DNA of 64,000 bases from a bacterium (GTDB taxonomy: Bacteria > Krumholzibacteriota > Krumholzibacteriia > LZORAL124-64-63): positions 1 to 64,000 of the forward strand of contig JAIFKS010000025.1 in assembly GCA_020049465.1 (NCBI GenBank). Reading direction: 5' to 3'. Under the pieces are notes generated by a model that was given only the letters and a program-made list of their open reading frames with translations, did not search any database and was not told the origin of the DNA. The translations under genes were made by a program, and so were the position numbers. This document shows, in pieces, positions 57,045-64,000 of this stretch. Each line of letters begins with the position of its first letter. Positions within the stretch are counted from its first letter, which is position 1.

Positions 57045-60000
57045 ATGCTCCATCGGCGATCGCCGGATCCCTCTTCGTCTTCAACGCGTCGAAGTCGAGC
57101 GGCCGGCGGCCGGACCGGCCCGCGGTTCGCGGTCGTTACGGCGGCGGTCCTGGCGCTCGTCTGTGCGGCGGCCGGCGCCGCCTGGCCGCAACTGGTGAAC
57201 CCCGGCAGCGCGGTCATGGAGATTCCGGTCGTCCGCGTGCTGAGCCAGACCCGCGATCGCACCGTCGTCCGCGTCGATTTCCCGGTTGCCAGCGCTCCCT
57301 TCGATTGGTTCTCCGTGCCGCTGGATTCCGTGCGTTTCGCGTTGCCGGGGACGAGCCCCGAGCCGGCCGACGACCCCGCGAGCGCGCGTGCTGAACTGCC
57401 GCCCCGTTTGAACCTGACCCTGGCGGTGCCGACGCTGCGGGCGCCCGACGTCCAGGTGGCGGATGTCCGCTGGTGGCGCGAGCCGGACCGGGCGCCCGAC
57501 CTGGCGTCCCTGGCGGTTTTTTCCGCGCCGGCGGTCTGCCGCTCGGTGCCCGTGACGGGATGCTCCCTGCCCCTGGCCGTGGACGGCGGCGTCCTGGCGG
57601 GCGTCACGCTCGTGATCGAGCACCGCCGTTCCGCCGATCACGGTCGTCTCCTGGAACGGGCGGAGTCGGCGGACACCGGGCTGTTCGGGGACGTCGTGTC
57701 CGCCGCCGACATGTCCGCCGCCGAAGTGCCGGCGGGTGTGCTCAATCCCGACCTGTTCGCCCTGCTGGCGAAAGGCGGCGGGCTCCGGGCCCGGGAAAAA
57801 GCAGCCGCCAAGCGCCTCACGCCCGATCCGTTCACCGCCACCTCGCACTGGGTCACGCTGCCGGTGCCCGCCACGGGTCTCTACCGCGTCACCGGCCAGC
57901 AACTGGCCGGCTATGGCGTGGCGGCCGGGGGCATCGACCCCGGCAAGCTGCGGCTGTACCGCGGCGGCGGCCTCGCGCTGGAGATGGATCCGGAATTTCC
58001 CGATTCCCTGCAGGCTGACCGCTCGCGGCTGAACGAAGTGGCGATCGATGTCGTGGACGGCGGCGATGGCGAGTGGAATCTCGATGACGAAATCCGCTTC
58101 TACGGCGTGTCGACGAGCACGTGGCGCGACCGGCTCGCGCCCGGCGCCGACCGGCTGAACCACTACGACCATCCCTTCGCCGACCAGGCCGTCTACTGGC
58201 TGACCTGGGAGGACGACGCGACGCCGTCGCCGCTGCCGGGCATCCCGCGCCGCGTCGCGACCGTCGAGGCGCCGGGACTGGGCGGGCAGGTTGTCGAAAC
58301 CTGCCGGCTTCGCCTGCACCAGGAGCAGCAGGTGGTCGATTCCCCGGGCGTGTTCGCGGACAACTGGGCCTGGATGACGGCCATCTCGAGTTCGCGCACG
58401 GCGACGTTCGACCTGCGGACGCCCGCGCCGGGGACGGCGGCGGAGTTCGTCGTCGATGTGCGCGGGAACTTCGCGGAAGCGCGGTGGGAGACCTACGCGT
58501 TCGAATTCACCGCCGAAGCCTGGCTCAACGGTGACCGGGCCGCGGCGGGCATCACAAGCTTTACCTACTACACGCAGGCCGACAGTCAGCGCGTGCGCGT
58601 CGGGGGATCGTCGGCCGCGGTGGTGGGCGGGGCCAACGCCCTGACCATCGCCAACTCTTCGGCTCAGGGACAGGACACCCGGCTCGACCTGATCCTGGAC
58701 AGCTTCGATGTGCTGTATTGGGCTCCGCTGGAACTTCCCGCCGGTTCGGGGCAGCTGGAATTCGCCCACTGGCGCGACCAGGTGGCGGCGCCGTCGTCGG
58801 CGACGGATTTCGTCGTGACGCATGCCGCGGGCGCACCGCTCCTGATCTGGGATGTGAGCCACCCCGATTCGGCGCTGGCGATCGCCGGCACGGCGACCGC
58901 CGAGTGGACCCGCTGGGGCGTGCTCCGGGACCAGGATTCCGACCGCCACTTCGTGATCTGCCGACCGGCGGACCTGTTGACGGTGACCGGCGGCGCCCGG
59001 GTTCTTCCGACGCCGCTCGCCGCGGTCGGCGGTGATGTGGACTACGTCGTCATCGCCCCCCAGTCCTTCGCGCCGATGGCCGAGGACCTGGCGGACTTCC
59101 GGTCCCGCTCGGTTCCGGGCGTGGCCTCGCCCGTGGCGCGCGCCTTCGCGGTCGAGGCGATCTACGGCAGCTACTCCGGCGGGCAGAAGGACCCGGCGGC
59201 GATCCGGAACTTCCTGAAACATCTCTACGAGAGCGGGGGCCATCGGCTCCGCTACGTCTGCTTCCTGGGCAAGGCCACCCGCGACTACCGCAACCACCTC
59301 GAGCGCACGCCATTCGTGGATCTGTACGACCTGTTGCCCACCGTTGTCCGGACCCGATTCCCCGTGTTTCCGGTTTCAGCGACGTTCCAGACGCCGTATG
59401 CGTCCGACGACGCGCTGGTGTCCTTCGACAGCCCGCCGGTCGCGGCCGGCGACGCACAGGACCTGGATTTCCCGGATCTCGCCTGCGGGCGACTGCCGGC
59501 CCGGAACAGCCAGGAAGCGCGCGCCATGGTCGCGATGACCATCGCCTACCACGAAGCGCCGGAAACCGGCCCGTGGCGCAATCAGGTCCTGCTGACGGCT
59601 GACGACACCTTCCGGCCGACAGAGGGCTTCCGCCTGGCCGAGGACAGGCACCTGCGTGAAGCCGAGGATCTTGCCGCGAATTACCTGCCTGGCAGCCTGG
59701 ACGTGCGGAAGGTCTACGGATCCGCCTACTCTTTCCCGGCTTCATCAACCGTCAAGGCGGCTGCCAGGATCGACATCAATGCCGCGCTGAACGCGGGCAC
59801 GACGATGTTCTACTACGTGGGCCACGGGGCGGAAGACAACCTGGCCGACGAGCAGATCTTCCGGACCGACGACATCGCCAACCTCGGCAACGGCGCGCGG
59901 CGGCCGCTGTTCGTCGCCTTCAGTTGCGACGTGGGGGTCTACGACAGCCCGAAGTGGCTGTCGATGGCCGAGGAATTCCTGATTTCTCCATCCGGCGGCG

Positions 60001-61274
60001 CCGTCGGCACGATTTGCGCCAGCCAGGTCAGCTACAGCGGCGAGAACGACGCGATCACCGAGGCGTTCTTCCGCAACCAGTTCCCGGGGCGCCGGGTGAC
60101 GACCGACCGTACGGTCGGCGAGGCTCTCAGGCTGGGCAAGGGCGAGATGGGCGGGCTCACCCTGCGCGCCAACAGCCAGCGCTACAATCTCATGGGCGAT
60201 CCCGCGCTGCGGCTGCCGCACCCGCTGGACGATCTCGTGCTGGCGCCGGCCAGCCTGGACACGCTGCGGGCCGGCGCGCGCCAGACCGTGGTGCTGGCGC
60301 GCGACGGCAACCCGGCGGTGGTTTCGGGAGACCGTTACCGCCTGCAGGTGCAGGAGAGCGCCGCGATCCGATCGTACGTCGCCATGACGGTGGTCAATCC
60401 GGCGCCCAATCCTCCCACCGTGTACACCCGCACCTGGGTTGCGCCGGGCGCGGCGGTTTTCCGGGGCGAGGGCACGCAGAGCGACGGCGACCTGATCATC
60501 CCCTTCAAGGTGCCCAGTCAGATCCGTTACGGTGACGGCGGCCGCGTGCGCCTCATCGTCGAGACGCCCGACGGCGACCATGCGGCGGTCCGGACGGTGC
60601 CGGCCGTGCGTGGTTCCACCGGCGTCGTCGACGATCTGCACGGGCCCCTCATCCGGCTGACCTTCGGGGATGGTCGCTTCCGTGTGCGGCCCGGCGACCC
60701 GCTGACCGCGACGCTGACCGACACCAGCGGCATCGCGATCCTGGGCACCAGTCCCGGCAATTCGTTGCTGTTGGAACTGGATGATTCGGGAAGGATGTCG
60801 AACCTGACGGCGTCCTTCGTCTACGACCCCGACAGCTTCACGAGCGGCACTCTGGTGTTTCCACTGCCGGCCGACCTCGCGAGCGGCGCCCACCGGGCCG
60901 CCCTTCACGCCAGCGACGCGCTGGGAAACGTCGGCTCCGACACCCTGAGCTTCGTGATCATCCCGGGTGGCGTCGCCGGCATCGAGGGCATCACCCCGTT
61001 CCCCAATCCGACGCCCGGACCGTGCCGGCTGCTCTTCGAACTGAGCGACCCGATGGCCGTCCAGTGGGACATCTACACGGTGGCCGGGCGCCGGATCCGT
61101 TCCCTGCGCGAAGCGTTCACCGAAGCCGGTCCGCGCATCCTGGAATGGGACGGCCGTGATGCCGGGGGCGACGAGATCGCCAACGGAACCTACCTGTACG
61201 TGCTGCGCGGCACGGGAGCCGCCACCGACGGACATGAGATCACGAAAACGGGGAAGCTGGTCATCCTGCGCTGA
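57045..61274 (+). CDS. Secreted C25 (gingipain/PorU-like) peptidase with C-terminal sorting-like domain
   Basis: A 1409-residue exported protein. A signal peptide with a long basic n-region (about 1-48) is followed by a PorU-like N-terminal region, with VTLPVPATGLYRVTGQQLAG and RLNEVAIDVVDGGDGEWNLDDE. The C25 cysteine-peptidase domain has His927 (YVGHGAED) and Cys961 (AFSCDVGV), the expected dyad. The last ~100 residues (from about 1310) have FPNPTPGPC, an IYTVAGRR strand and a WDGRD...NGTYLY ending, like FlgD-Ig/type-A C-terminal sorting domains. In Bacteroidota PorU is the sortase of type IX secretion, whereas gingipains are cargo; this protein mixes traits of both. The ATG at 57045 has a poor ribosome binding site; an upstream TTG (56973) lacks support. 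Confidence 0.85.
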   Translation: MLHRRSPDPSSSSTRRSRAAGGRTGPRFAVVTAAVLALVCAAAGAAWPQLVNPGSAVMEIPVVRVLSQTRDRTVVRVDFPVASAPFDWFSVPLDSVRFALPGTSPEPADDPASARAELPPRLNLTLAVPTLRAPDVQVADVRWWREPDRAPDLASLAVFSAPAVCRSVPVTGCSLPLAVDGGVLAGVTLVIEHRRSADHGRLLERAESADTGLFGDVVSAADMSAAEVPAGVLNPDLFALLAKGGGLRAREKAAAKRLTPDPFTATSHWVTLPVPATGLYRVTGQQLAGYGVAAGGIDPGKLRLYRGGGLALEMDPEFPDSLQADRSRLNEVAIDVVDGGDGEWNLDDEIRFYGVSTSTWRDRLAPGADRLNHYDHPFADQAVYWLTWEDDATPSPLPGIPRRVATVEAPGLGGQVVETCRLRLHQEQQVVDSPGVFADNWAWMTAISSSRTATFDLRTPAPGTAAEFVVDVRGNFAEARWETYAFEFTAEAWLNGDRAAAGITSFTYYTQADSQRVRVGGSSAAVVGGANALTIANSSAQGQDTRLDLILDSFDVLYWAPLELPAGSGQLEFAHWRDQVAAPSSATDFVVTHAAGAPLLIWDVSHPDSALAIAGTATAEWTRWGVLRDQDSDRHFVICRPADLLTVTGGARVLPTPLAAVGGDVDYVVIAPQSFAPMAEDLADFRSRSVPGVASPVARAFAVEAIYGSYSGGQKDPAAIRNFLKHLYESGGHRLRYVCFLGKATRDYRNHLERTPFVDLYDLLPTVVRTRFPVFPVSATFQTPYASDDALVSFDSPPVAAGDAQDLDFPDLACGRLPARNSQEARAMVAMTIAYHEAPETGPWRNQVLLTADDTFRPTEGFRLAEDRHLREAEDLAANYLPGSLDVRKVYGSAYSFPASSTVKAAARIDINAALNAGTTMFYYVGHGAEDNLADEQIFRTDDIANLGNGARRPLFVAFSCDVGVYDSPKWLSMAEEFLISPSGGAVGTICASQVSYSGENDAITEAFFRNQFPGRRVTTDRTVGEALRLGKGEMGGLTLRANSQRYNLMGDPALRLPHPLDDLVLAPASLDTLRAGARQTVVLARDGNPAVVSGDRYRLQVQESAAIRSYVAMTVVNPAPNPPTVYTRTWVAPGAAVFRGEGTQSDGDLIIPFKVPSQIRYGDGGRVRLIVETPDGDHAAVRTVPAVRGSTGVVDDLHGPLIRLTFGDGRFRVRPGDPLTATLTDTSGIAILGTSPGNSLLLELDDSGRMSNLTASFVYDPDSFTSGTLVFPLPADLASGAHRAALHASDALGNVGSDTLSFVIIPGGVAGIEGITPFPNPTPGPCRLLFELSDPMAVQWDIYTVAGRRIRSLREAFTEAGPRILEWDGRDAGGDEIANGTYLYVLRGTGAATDGHEITKTGKLVILR

Positions 61275-61301
61275 AAGCCGCGGCGCCCGCTCCGATTGCC
61301 G

Positions 61302-61330
61302 TTGACACGGCGCCGGTTTCGGTTTAATCT
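61302..61330 (+). promoter_or_regulatory. Near-consensus promoter after the C25 gene
   Basis: TTGACA (61302-61307), a 17-nt spacer and TAATCT (61325-61330). It faces the Trm112-like gene but is followed about 30 nt later by a terminator-like hairpin. Confidence 0.7.
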
Positions 61331-61336
61331 GATCCC

Positions 61337-61403
61337 TGCCAACCGCTTCGAAAATCCGTGCTGCCCCGGCCGGCCTGGTCTCGTACCGGGGCGGCTCGTT
61401 TTG
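61337..61403 (+). ncRNA. Candidate small RNA or transcription attenuator
   Basis: From the predicted start at about 61337 to a 10-bp terminator stem, GCTGCCCCGG (61360-61369) with CCGGGGCGGC (61386-61395), followed by TCGTTTTG. The product would be about 65 nt with no reading frame of note. It could be a free small RNA or a terminated leader for the downstream genes. Called from pattern only; no known RNA family was recognised. Confidence 0.4.
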
Positions 61404-61454
61404 TATCTCCGTTCGACACGACCGGATCCGCCGCGGCGGCGGGAACTGGTGTGT

Positions 61455-61482
61455 TTGCAACCCGCTGCAATCGTACTATGAT
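61455..61482 (+). promoter_or_regulatory. Second promoter, for the Trm112-like gene and its neighbour
   Basis: TTGCAA (61455-61460), a 16-nt spacer and TATGAT (61477-61482), about 70 nt before the ATG at 61554. It lies beyond the candidate attenuator. Confidence 0.6.
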
Positions 61483-61553
61483 GCGTGGCAAATTGTCGTC
61501 CGGCACCACTGCCGGCCGATCAGGTACCGTACCAAGGTGGAGGCGCGATCACG

Positions 61554-61748
61554 ATGCTCGACCCGAAGCTCCTGGAGATCCTGGCGTGCCCGCTCTGCCG
61601 CCAGCCGGTGGCGCCCGACGAGGCGCACGCCTGGCTCTACTGCCGCGGCTGCTCGGTGCGGTACCGGGTGGAAGACGGCATCCCCATCATGCTTCCGGAC
61701 GAAGCGCAGCCGATCCCCGCCGCCGGCGGGCCGCGGGAGCAGTCGTAG
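61554..61748 (+). CDS. Trm112-family small zinc-ribbon protein
   Basis: A 64-residue protein with the Trm112/YcaR fold. LLEILACPLCRQPV supplies the first Cys pair and YCRGCSVRYRVEDGIPIML the second, making a four-Cys zinc ribbon. Bacterial members are small partners of methyltransferases or assembly factors; the partner here is unknown. The ATG at 61554 is chosen because the family begins with MLDPKLLEIL, with GGTGGAGG about 10 nt upstream. Its stop TAG shares its last base with the GTG of the next gene. Confidence 0.9.
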   Translation: MLDPKLLEILACPLCRQPVAPDEAHAWLYCRGCSVRYRVEDGIPIMLPDEAQPIPAAGGPREQS

Positions 61749-64000
61749 TGTGCCTGTTCACCCATTTCGCGGCCGGAGCGCTGGCCGGCGGACTGACCGG
61801 GTCGCCGGTCTGGGGCGCGTTGGCCGGGGTGGCGTCACACGCCGTCCTGGATGTGCTGCCGCACTACGACCATCCGGACTGGCGGCTGGAACTGGGCGGC
61901 GGCATCGCCGCGCTGGCGCTGCTGCTGGTGATGCCATTTGCAAGCGTGGCCGCCGTCATCGGGGGGATCGCCGGTATGCTGCCTGATCTCGAGAACCTCT
62001 TCCAGAAGCTGGGCAAAATGCGCCGGGACCAGTTCATCTACCCGACGCACACCGGCCTGCTGCGGCACGGCCGGCCTCTGGGGCCGCGCAACCTGGGCGT
62101 GCAGGCCGCCATTTTCGTGGGCTGTTTCGCGCTGCTGGGCCTGGCGCGCCCCGGGAACGCGGCGGCCGCCGGAGAGACCCCGGGCGCCGTGATGGAGCGG
62201 CCGGTGGTGCGCGTGATCAGCCAGACCGCGGACCGCACCGTCGTGCGGATCGATTTTCCCGTCGGGCAGAGCCCGGCCGACTGGCAGGCGCTGGATCCGA
62301 CCGCGGTGCAGTTCGCTTTGCCGCCGGTGGTCGACGACCTCGACGACGGCATCGGCGGCGATCTGCGCCAGTCGGCGCCGGAGTTGCGCCTGAGCGTCGC
62401 GATGCCGACGCGCGCGCAGCCGCAGGTGACCGTCACCGACGTCCGCTGGTGGCGTGAACCGGACACGGGCCTGGACCCCGCGGTGCTGGTGCGCAGTGGA
62501 CCGCCCGCCGTGTTCCGCGCCGTTCCGCTGGCCGGTTGCAATGTGACGCTGGCGGCCGAAGGCGGCGTGCTGGCGGGATTGACCGTGGAATTGCGCCATC
62601 CGGCGTCGGCGCCGTTCGCCGGACGCCTGGCGCTCGCGGCCCGCGACGACGATCCGTTCGCGAAGGCCGCCGTCGTGCCGGCGCCCGACGGCGTGGTCAA
62701 CGGCGACCTGTTCGCGGCGCTGGCCGCGGGGGCGGGCGTGGAGTCCCGGTCGCGCGGCGCCGCGAAAGCCGCGGCGTTCGACCCGTTCCTGGCCACCTCG
62801 CGCTGGGTGACGCTGCCTGTTTCGGAGAATGGACTTTACCGGCTGACCGGCCAGCAACTGGCCGGCTTCGGTGTTCCCGTCGGCGATGTCGATCCGGCGA
62901 AGCTGCGCCTGTACCGCGGTGGCGGGCTGGCGCTGGAAATGGATCCGGAATTCCCGGATTCGCTGCAGGCCGACCGCACCCGTCTGAACGAGGTCGCCAT
63001 CAACGTCTTGGACGGCGGCGACGGCGAATGGAATCTGGACGACGAACTGCGCTTCTACGGGGTGGCGACCAGCGCCTGGCGCGACCGCTTCGAAGCCGGA
63101 GCGGAACGACTCGACCATTACGACCACCCGTACGCGGCCGAGGCCGTCTACTGGCTGACGTGGGAGAACGACGCCACGGCTTCGCCGCTGCCGGGTGTGC
63201 CGCGGCGCGCGGCGACGGTCGCGGCGCCGGCCCTCGGCGGGCTGGCTGTGGACAGCGCGCGTCTGCGCGTACACCTGGAAAACCAGTTCTCGGACTCGCC
63301 CGGTGTGGTGGCCGACAACTGGACGTGGGATCCGTTCATCAGCAGTTCGCGGACCGAGACGTTCAACCTGCGCACGCCGCTGGCCGGCTCGTCGGCGCGG
63401 GTCGTCGCCGATGTGCGCGGCATGTACGACGTGTTTTCCGCAGGCTACGTTTTCACGGCGAAGGTCTGGCTGAACGGCGACCAGAACCAGGCCGGGACCA
63501 TGTCCTTCAACTACAGCGCGCAGAACGACAGCCTGCGCCTGCGCGTTTTCGGCGAGAGCACGGCGCTGCTGGCCGGTTCGAATTCCTTCACGGTGCAGAA
63601 CGCCTCGACCTCGCTTCCGCGCAAGCCTTTGGCGCTGGACAGCGTCGATGTCCTGTACTGGACCGCGCTGGCGCTTGACCCGGCGCTCGGGCAGTTCGAT
63701 TTCTCCCACTGGGGCGACCAGGTCATCGATCCGGCCACCGCTACCGACCTGCGCTTGACGGTGCCGGCCGGCTTGTCGCCCATCGTCTGGGACGTGACGC
63801 GGCCCGATTCGGCGTTCGTTCTGAGCGGCACGGCCGAGACCGGGCGCGTCGTCATCGGCCTGGTCCGCGAACCAGGACAGGACCGGCACTTCGTGGCGAC
63901 CGAAGCTTCGGACCTGCTCGCGGTGGCCTCGGGGTCGCGCGTGCTGCCGACGTCGCTGCTCGATGACGCCAGCGACCTCGACTACGTGGTCATCGCCGCG
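61748..64000 (+). CDS. Polytopic membrane domain fused to a PorU/C25-like secreted protein (3' end outside window)
   Basis: The reading frame is open from GTG 61748 to the window end, 751 codons with no stop. Residues 1-135 form a membrane domain with three hydrophobic segments and conserved-looking His/Asp residues (His6, His31, Asp34, His39, Asp41, Asp80, His101, His107), like DUF457/YdjM-type putative metal-dependent membrane proteins. From about 150 the protein is a close paralogue of the 57045 gene (VVRVISQTADRTVVRIDF; GLYRLTGQQLAG). The third helix plus ARPGNAAAAG could act as the export signal. The catalytic C25 part, if present, lies beyond 64000. An internal start (ATG 62018 or GTG 62098) producing a separate secreted protein cannot be excluded. 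Confidence 0.8.
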   Translation, partial: MCLFTHFAAGALAGGLTGSPVWGALAGVASHAVLDVLPHYDHPDWRLELGGGIAALALLLVMPFASVAAVIGGIAGMLPDLENLFQKLGKMRRDQFIYPTHTGLLRHGRPLGPRNLGVQAAIFVGCFALLGLARPGNAAAAGETPGAVMERPVVRVISQTADRTVVRIDFPVGQSPADWQALDPTAVQFALPPVVDDLDDGIGGDLRQSAPELRLSVAMPTRAQPQVTVTDVRWWREPDTGLDPAVLVRSGPPAVFRAVPLAGCNVTLAAEGGVLAGLTVELRHPASAPFAGRLALAARDDDPFAKAAVVPAPDGVVNGDLFAALAAGAGVESRSRGAAKAAAFDPFLATSRWVTLPVSENGLYRLTGQQLAGFGVPVGDVDPAKLRLYRGGGLALEMDPEFPDSLQADRTRLNEVAINVLDGGDGEWNLDDELRFYGVATSAWRDRFEAGAERLDHYDHPYAAEAVYWLTWENDATASPLPGVPRRAATVAAPALGGLAVDSARLRVHLENQFSDSPGVVADNWTWDPFISSSRTETFNLRTPLAGSSARVVADVRGMYDVFSAGYVFTAKVWLNGDQNQAGTMSFNYSAQNDSLRLRVFGESTALLAGSNSFTVQNASTSLPRKPLALDSVDVLYWTALALDPALGQFDFSHWGDQVIDPATATDLRLTVPAGLSPIVWDVTRPDSAFVLSGTAETGRVVIGLVREPGQDRHFVATEASDLLAVASGSRVLPTSLLDDASDLDYVVIAA

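Follow-up and report, generated by a model that had tools for sequence, protein, structure and literature searches.

The window analyzed here, that is, the whole 64,000-nucleotide stretch of a Krumholzibacteriota contig, carries at its 3′ end two tandem genes for large PorU-type proteins (hereafter designated copies A and B). In the original prediction, the span 57045–64000 was described as two large exported proteins; the PorU pair is indeed there, but a Trm112-like gene and a small membrane protein (memb) fall within the span as well. The features are as follows.

57045–61274, forward strand: PorU copy A, complete open reading frame, 1409 aa (NF033707, PF01364, and 6za2 by sequence and fold)
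57111–57185, forward strand: predicted signal sequence of copy A, about residues 23–47, limits approximate (hydropathy and alignment)
59043–60215, forward strand: Peptidase_C25 domain of copy A (PF01364, E 4e-80 in a search of the genome)
59823–59825, forward strand: codon of His927 in copy A (the GHG motif starts at residue 926)
59925–59927, forward strand: codon of Cys961 in copy A (the SCD motif starts at residue 960)
60969–61271, forward strand: C-terminal sorting-type (FlgD-like) domain of copy A (the genome's own C-terminal domain model; FlgD_ig below its cut-off)
61554–61748, forward strand: Trm112-like gene between the two PorU copies (PF03966, E 6.6e-13)
61748–62098, forward strand: memb, small membrane protein with hydrophobic segments, no stop codon separating it from the in-frame copy B
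62099–64000, forward strand: 5′ part of PorU copy B (NF033707, 510 bits over the full protein)

Position 62099 marks the first residue counted as PorU in copy B and is not an established start codon. The stretch separating copy A from the trm112-like gene contains one terminator-like (61378) and one promoter-like (61454) site, both recognized by consensus only. The His927/Cys961 dyad predicted to be intact in the first protein was confirmed at exactly these residues in copy A, and the dyad is invariant in all 36 aligned PorU sequences. The 86-residue block starting at GLYR likewise contains exactly the 73 identities to the second protein that had been counted, but GLYR begins at residue 278 and not at about residue 283.

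Copy B crosses the end of the window but is complete on its contig (C121; 87,683 bases), where the frame ends at about position 66194 and the C25 domain lies at 63983–65161, with an intact dyad and the same C-terminal domain (CTD) as in copy A. The preceding memb, for which a Pfam profile search gave no confident family, reads straight into PorU with loss of its stop codon in the window genome and in nine others (loci L068, L065, L035, L033, L067, L070, L071, L063, and L032), all of the window's family; outside this family, memb is terminated by a stop codon immediately preceding porU. The fused loci have no start codon at the junction in common, the junction itself having none in L070 and L063, and an upstream ATG within memb is found only in some of them. 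Alanine-rich A-x-A-like motifs come after the last memb helix in most fused loci, although not clearly in L070. Judging from these sequences, memb and PorU are likely translated as one protein, and we infer that the last memb helix would serve as the signal sequence of the fused PorU. Such a fusion, with the last helix apparently acting as the signal, would be an unusual route for an export signal to arise. Moreover, alignment revealed a short similarity of the N-terminus of copy A to the last memb helix and the loop preceding it, which hints weakly that copy A arose from a fused gene.

Both proteins had been predicted to be PorU-like members of the C25 family, and this assignment was borne out by profile searches, in which both matched the C25 profile (PF01364; E 9.5e-79 for copy A) and exceeded the cut-off of the NCBIfam T9SS_sortase PorU profile (NF033707) end to end, with 501 bits for copy A and 510 bits for copy B against a cut-off of 420. 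The PorU2 profile (NF052324) gave only 132–138 bits for the two proteins against a cut-off of 450. In a sequence search of the PDB (E ≤ 0.01), the sole match was Porphyromonas gingivalis PorU (6za2; E 5.6e-45). An AlphaFold model of copy A (residues 226–1409, built with the alignment of 36 PorUs; pLDDT 86, pTM 0.80) was also compared with RgpB and PorU, as had been proposed, and PorU was by far the better match. Thus, Foldseek aligned the model with 6za2 over nearly the full length (E 5e-58) and with RgpB only in the catalytic part (E 6e-18); the values for the gingipains RgpB and Kgp ranged from 6e-18 to 6e-15. The TM-scores to 6za2 were 0.42–0.47 over the multidomain chain, so that the relative placement of the domains in the model is not established. 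The two proteins are new PorU members; the profile and model comparisons support their assignment to PorU rather than to the gingipains, with a predicted CTD-removal/transpeptidation activity. As an explanation of the whole, we consider it very probable that copies A and B are tandem PorU paralogues, functioning as surface sortase-type peptidases of a type IX secretion system (T9SS).

PorU matches (E ≤ 0.001) were found in all 69 genomes of the phylum that are at least 80% complete; 50 were over the cut-off, and several others lay on broken contigs. Only the window genome among the 69 has two over-cut-off copies, and tandem PorU is therefore not the rule in the lineage. The genome is, as predicted, not obviously of Bacteroidota; its nearest named relative is Candidatus Krumholzibacteriia, whose sequence falls within the window's family in the PorU tree, and judging from this placement the genome very probably belongs to Candidatus Krumholzibacteriota. 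Copy B represents the ancestral gene, since the relatives have it within the phylum-wide porU–porV cluster. Copy A, which lies between accA and the trm112-like gene, is confined to the window genome and branches in the tree before copy B and its three genus relatives (SH-aLRT 98, quick method), with branch lengths of 0.41 for A and 0.17 for B. It may have originated by a gene duplication basal to the genus with subsequent losses, by transfer from a near relative, or as a faster-changing duplicate.

The overall identity between the two copies is about 64–65%, far beyond chance, and is lowest in the N-terminal domains (about 45%; range 43–50%) and highest in the CTD (about 83%). An assembly duplication is ruled out by the amino-acid difference of about 35%; gene conversion is not claimed, the excess of A–B identity near the C-terminus being slight. 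With the CTDs most alike and the N-terminal domains least alike, the identity profile suggests two catalytically competent sortases that would share a docking partner and divide their labor by substrate or acceptor. It is conceivable, though rather doubtful, that copy A is instead a redundant or decaying duplicate without a separate role, for which its occurrence in one genome, its longer branch (0.41 versus 0.17), and its location outside the conserved cluster order would speak; however, copy A retains an intact 1409-aa frame with the dyad, the CTD, and a predicted signal sequence.

A search of the genome for SprA/Sov and PorV, which had been recommended, found both. SprA/Sov is encoded on contig C129 (L037:7941-14417, reverse strand; 2158 aa) and scored 502 bits with TIGR04189 against a cut-off of 200; with a phylum profile, it matched 6h3i in the PDB with an E of 7.5e-107. 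Its conserved neighbors include lptF/lptG-like, metK-like, and nusA-like genes, named by sequence appearance, and a gene for an M28-family peptidase; no motor gene was seen among them. The M28 peptidase gene (L037:6980-7894, reverse strand, contig C129) directly follows SprA, as is also the case in six of eight further loci retrieved from the phylum, and its product has, by motif alone, the look of a glutaminyl-cyclase type. PorV-family proteins exceed the cut-off at six places in the genome, one directly downstream of copy B; this neighbor scores 180.6 bits with the PorV/PorQ family profile (NF033709; cut-off 90) and falls below the cut-off of the narrower PorV equivalog (NF033710; 109 versus 250 bits). 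Furthermore, at least 142 matches were obtained with the genome's own CTD model (150 of the 223 candidates scored), and 19 of 20 sampled matches end at the protein end, within 10 residues of the stop codon. None of the C25 proteins tested reached the curated cut-offs of the Bacteroidota CTD models with this FlgD-like domain, so that the label "cargo" is drawn from position and number. SprA matches are present in 78 of 80 genomes of the phylum. Among 160 sampled genomes outside it, SprA occurs in 54 (E ≤ 1e-10), PorU in 42 (E ≤ 1e-60), and the two together in 33 (Fisher p 2.5e-12, uncorrected for phylogeny). Collectively, C25 proteins, SprA, and PorV are all present, so that the conditions named as refuting the original prediction (lack of a C25 hit or of T9SS components) do not apply, and the type IX-like route predicted for this lineage is supported by SprA, PorV, and the CTD proteins; the tandem PorU, which had been taken as its sign, is not a lineage trait (one of 69 genomes).

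That copies A and B are secreted gingipain-like proteases, namely, cargo and not sortases, is highly improbable. The two proteins do belong to C25 and carry a CTD as cargo does, and the genome contains other, more cargo-like C25 proteins (contigs C124, C129, C101, and C149), two of the three tested being far below the PorU cut-off and having FG-GAP or other modules. However, the end-to-end PorU equivalog score over the cut-off, the adjoining PorV, and the fold match (E 5e-58 to PorU versus 6e-18 to RgpB) argue for sortases. A further C25 protein (L012:3642-8072, contig C149) has the PorU N-terminal region (145 bits, below the cut-off) and GHANQ in place of the usual GHG, and may be a divergent PorU relative. 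Least probable of all is the originally suggested sharing of sortase and substrate roles between the paralogues, one being the sortase and the other a substrate or scaffold, which would suit the CTD of both and their greatest difference in the N-terminal domains but gains no support, because both keep the dyad, and a CTD, being found in P. gingivalis PorU too (PMC11285876), does not mark a substrate.

Across the sampled families, the gene order dnaE–accA–(trm112-like)–(memb)–porU–porV–M6-like–two DUF5683-like–NHL lipoprotein–SprL–Omp85-like is kept, with some members missing or undetected in some genomes; the trm112-like entries in this comparison represent DNA-level conservation only. The following member of the cluster is encoded on the same contig as copy B.

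L014:3877-7428 (contig C121:73876-77427): SprL, 1183 aa, predicted outer-membrane β-barrel (from the model)

SprL, about 1130–1180 aa in length, is a conserved member of this cluster throughout the phylum, and no PDB match was found by sequence. Its predicted model is a large β-barrel (pLDDT 76, pTM 0.65), which is consistent with a location in the outer membrane. SprL was considered as a second SprA and rejected: it matches TIGR04189 with an E of 2.8e-8, but the profile–profile overlap extends over only 54 columns, and SprA structures top the Foldseek list, yet with TM-scores of only 0.14–0.28. Separately, a third, weaker SprA-profile match (44.8 bits) lies in a 403-aa frame at C102:69900-70376 on the reverse strand (locus L018 of genome G000).

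The proposed search for PorL/M/N yielded no convincing homologue. The GldL, GldM, and GldN profiles had no match in the window genome and gave nothing convincing in the phylum or in the 33 other sampled genomes with PorU and SprA. Among the sampled genomes, GldM and GldN match only in G140, and GldL exceeds its cut-off only there, the three lying together (G140:C1:3472730-3476068). As neither SprA nor PorU was matched in G140 at the thresholds applied, this genome serves as a control for the motor profiles only. Very weak GldL matches (E 4e-4 to 9e-4, about 20 bits versus a cut-off of 68), including those in G204 and G223, both with SprA and PorU, and in G068 of the phylum, were treated as unconvincing. 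Since the motor profiles were built from Bacteroidota, a distant or divergent motor may be missed, and the present evidence for a T9SS covers its outer-membrane half. We tentatively raise the possibility, less probable than its converse, that Krumholzibacteriota and many other SprA/PorU lineages have a translocon and a sortase of T9SS type but lack the PorL/M/N rotary chain, that another device would drive export, perhaps involving the conserved porU-cluster proteins (the large β-barrel, the DUF5683-like pair, the NHL lipoprotein, and Omp85), and that Bacteroidota would have acquired their motor later. Of all points, the missing motor most merits testing and is also the least certain; whether the motor is essential for type 9 export becomes testable by comparison.

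Presumably, CTD-bearing cargo would be exported by Sec and cross the outer membrane through the SprA/Sov encoded on contig C129, and a PorV-family shuttle would then receive it. PorU, docked on PorV through its own CTD, would remove the CTD of the cargo, whose new end would then either be linked to a surface molecule or merely be set free.

The T9SS has been described as restricted to Bacteroidetes (PMC4793230, 2016) and as a system of the FCB superphylum (PMC11205867), with an energy chain as its power source (PMC12635249); Krumholzibacteriota is missing from a short list of further FCB phyla that may have it (PMC11285876). No publication linking Krumholzibacteriota with type IX secretion was found in the literature covered, which was incomplete, and two papers in which the phylum is named are silent on the subject. 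Among the known C25 proteins, the gingipains RgpB and Kgp, which are cargo proteases, have the C25 catalytic fold in common with copy A, which matches them in the catalytic part only, and PorU2 is related to both copies in the N-terminal and catalytic regions, with scores far below its cut-off. P. gingivalis PorU (6za2; NF033707) is alike in the full-length profile and fold match, the His/Cys dyad, the C-terminal domain, and the PorV-family neighbor; in contrast, the proteins described here carry an N-terminal extension of about 220 residues ahead of the profile match and occur as two tandem copies, of which B forms an in-frame fusion with a membrane protein. Similarly, the Bacteroidota T9SS, comprising SprA/Sov, PorV, PorU, and PorK/L/M/N, is matched here by SprA over the cut-off, the PorV family, PorU, and many proteins with a C-terminal β-domain, but convincing GldL/M/N are lacking, the FlgD-like CTD falls below the Bacteroidota CTD cut-offs, and the gene neighborhood is different. 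The system of this phylum is, as far as seen, a variant T9SS, and a phylum with SprA, PorU, PorV, and a large set of CTD proteins but no recognizable GldL/M/N widens the range of the T9SS.
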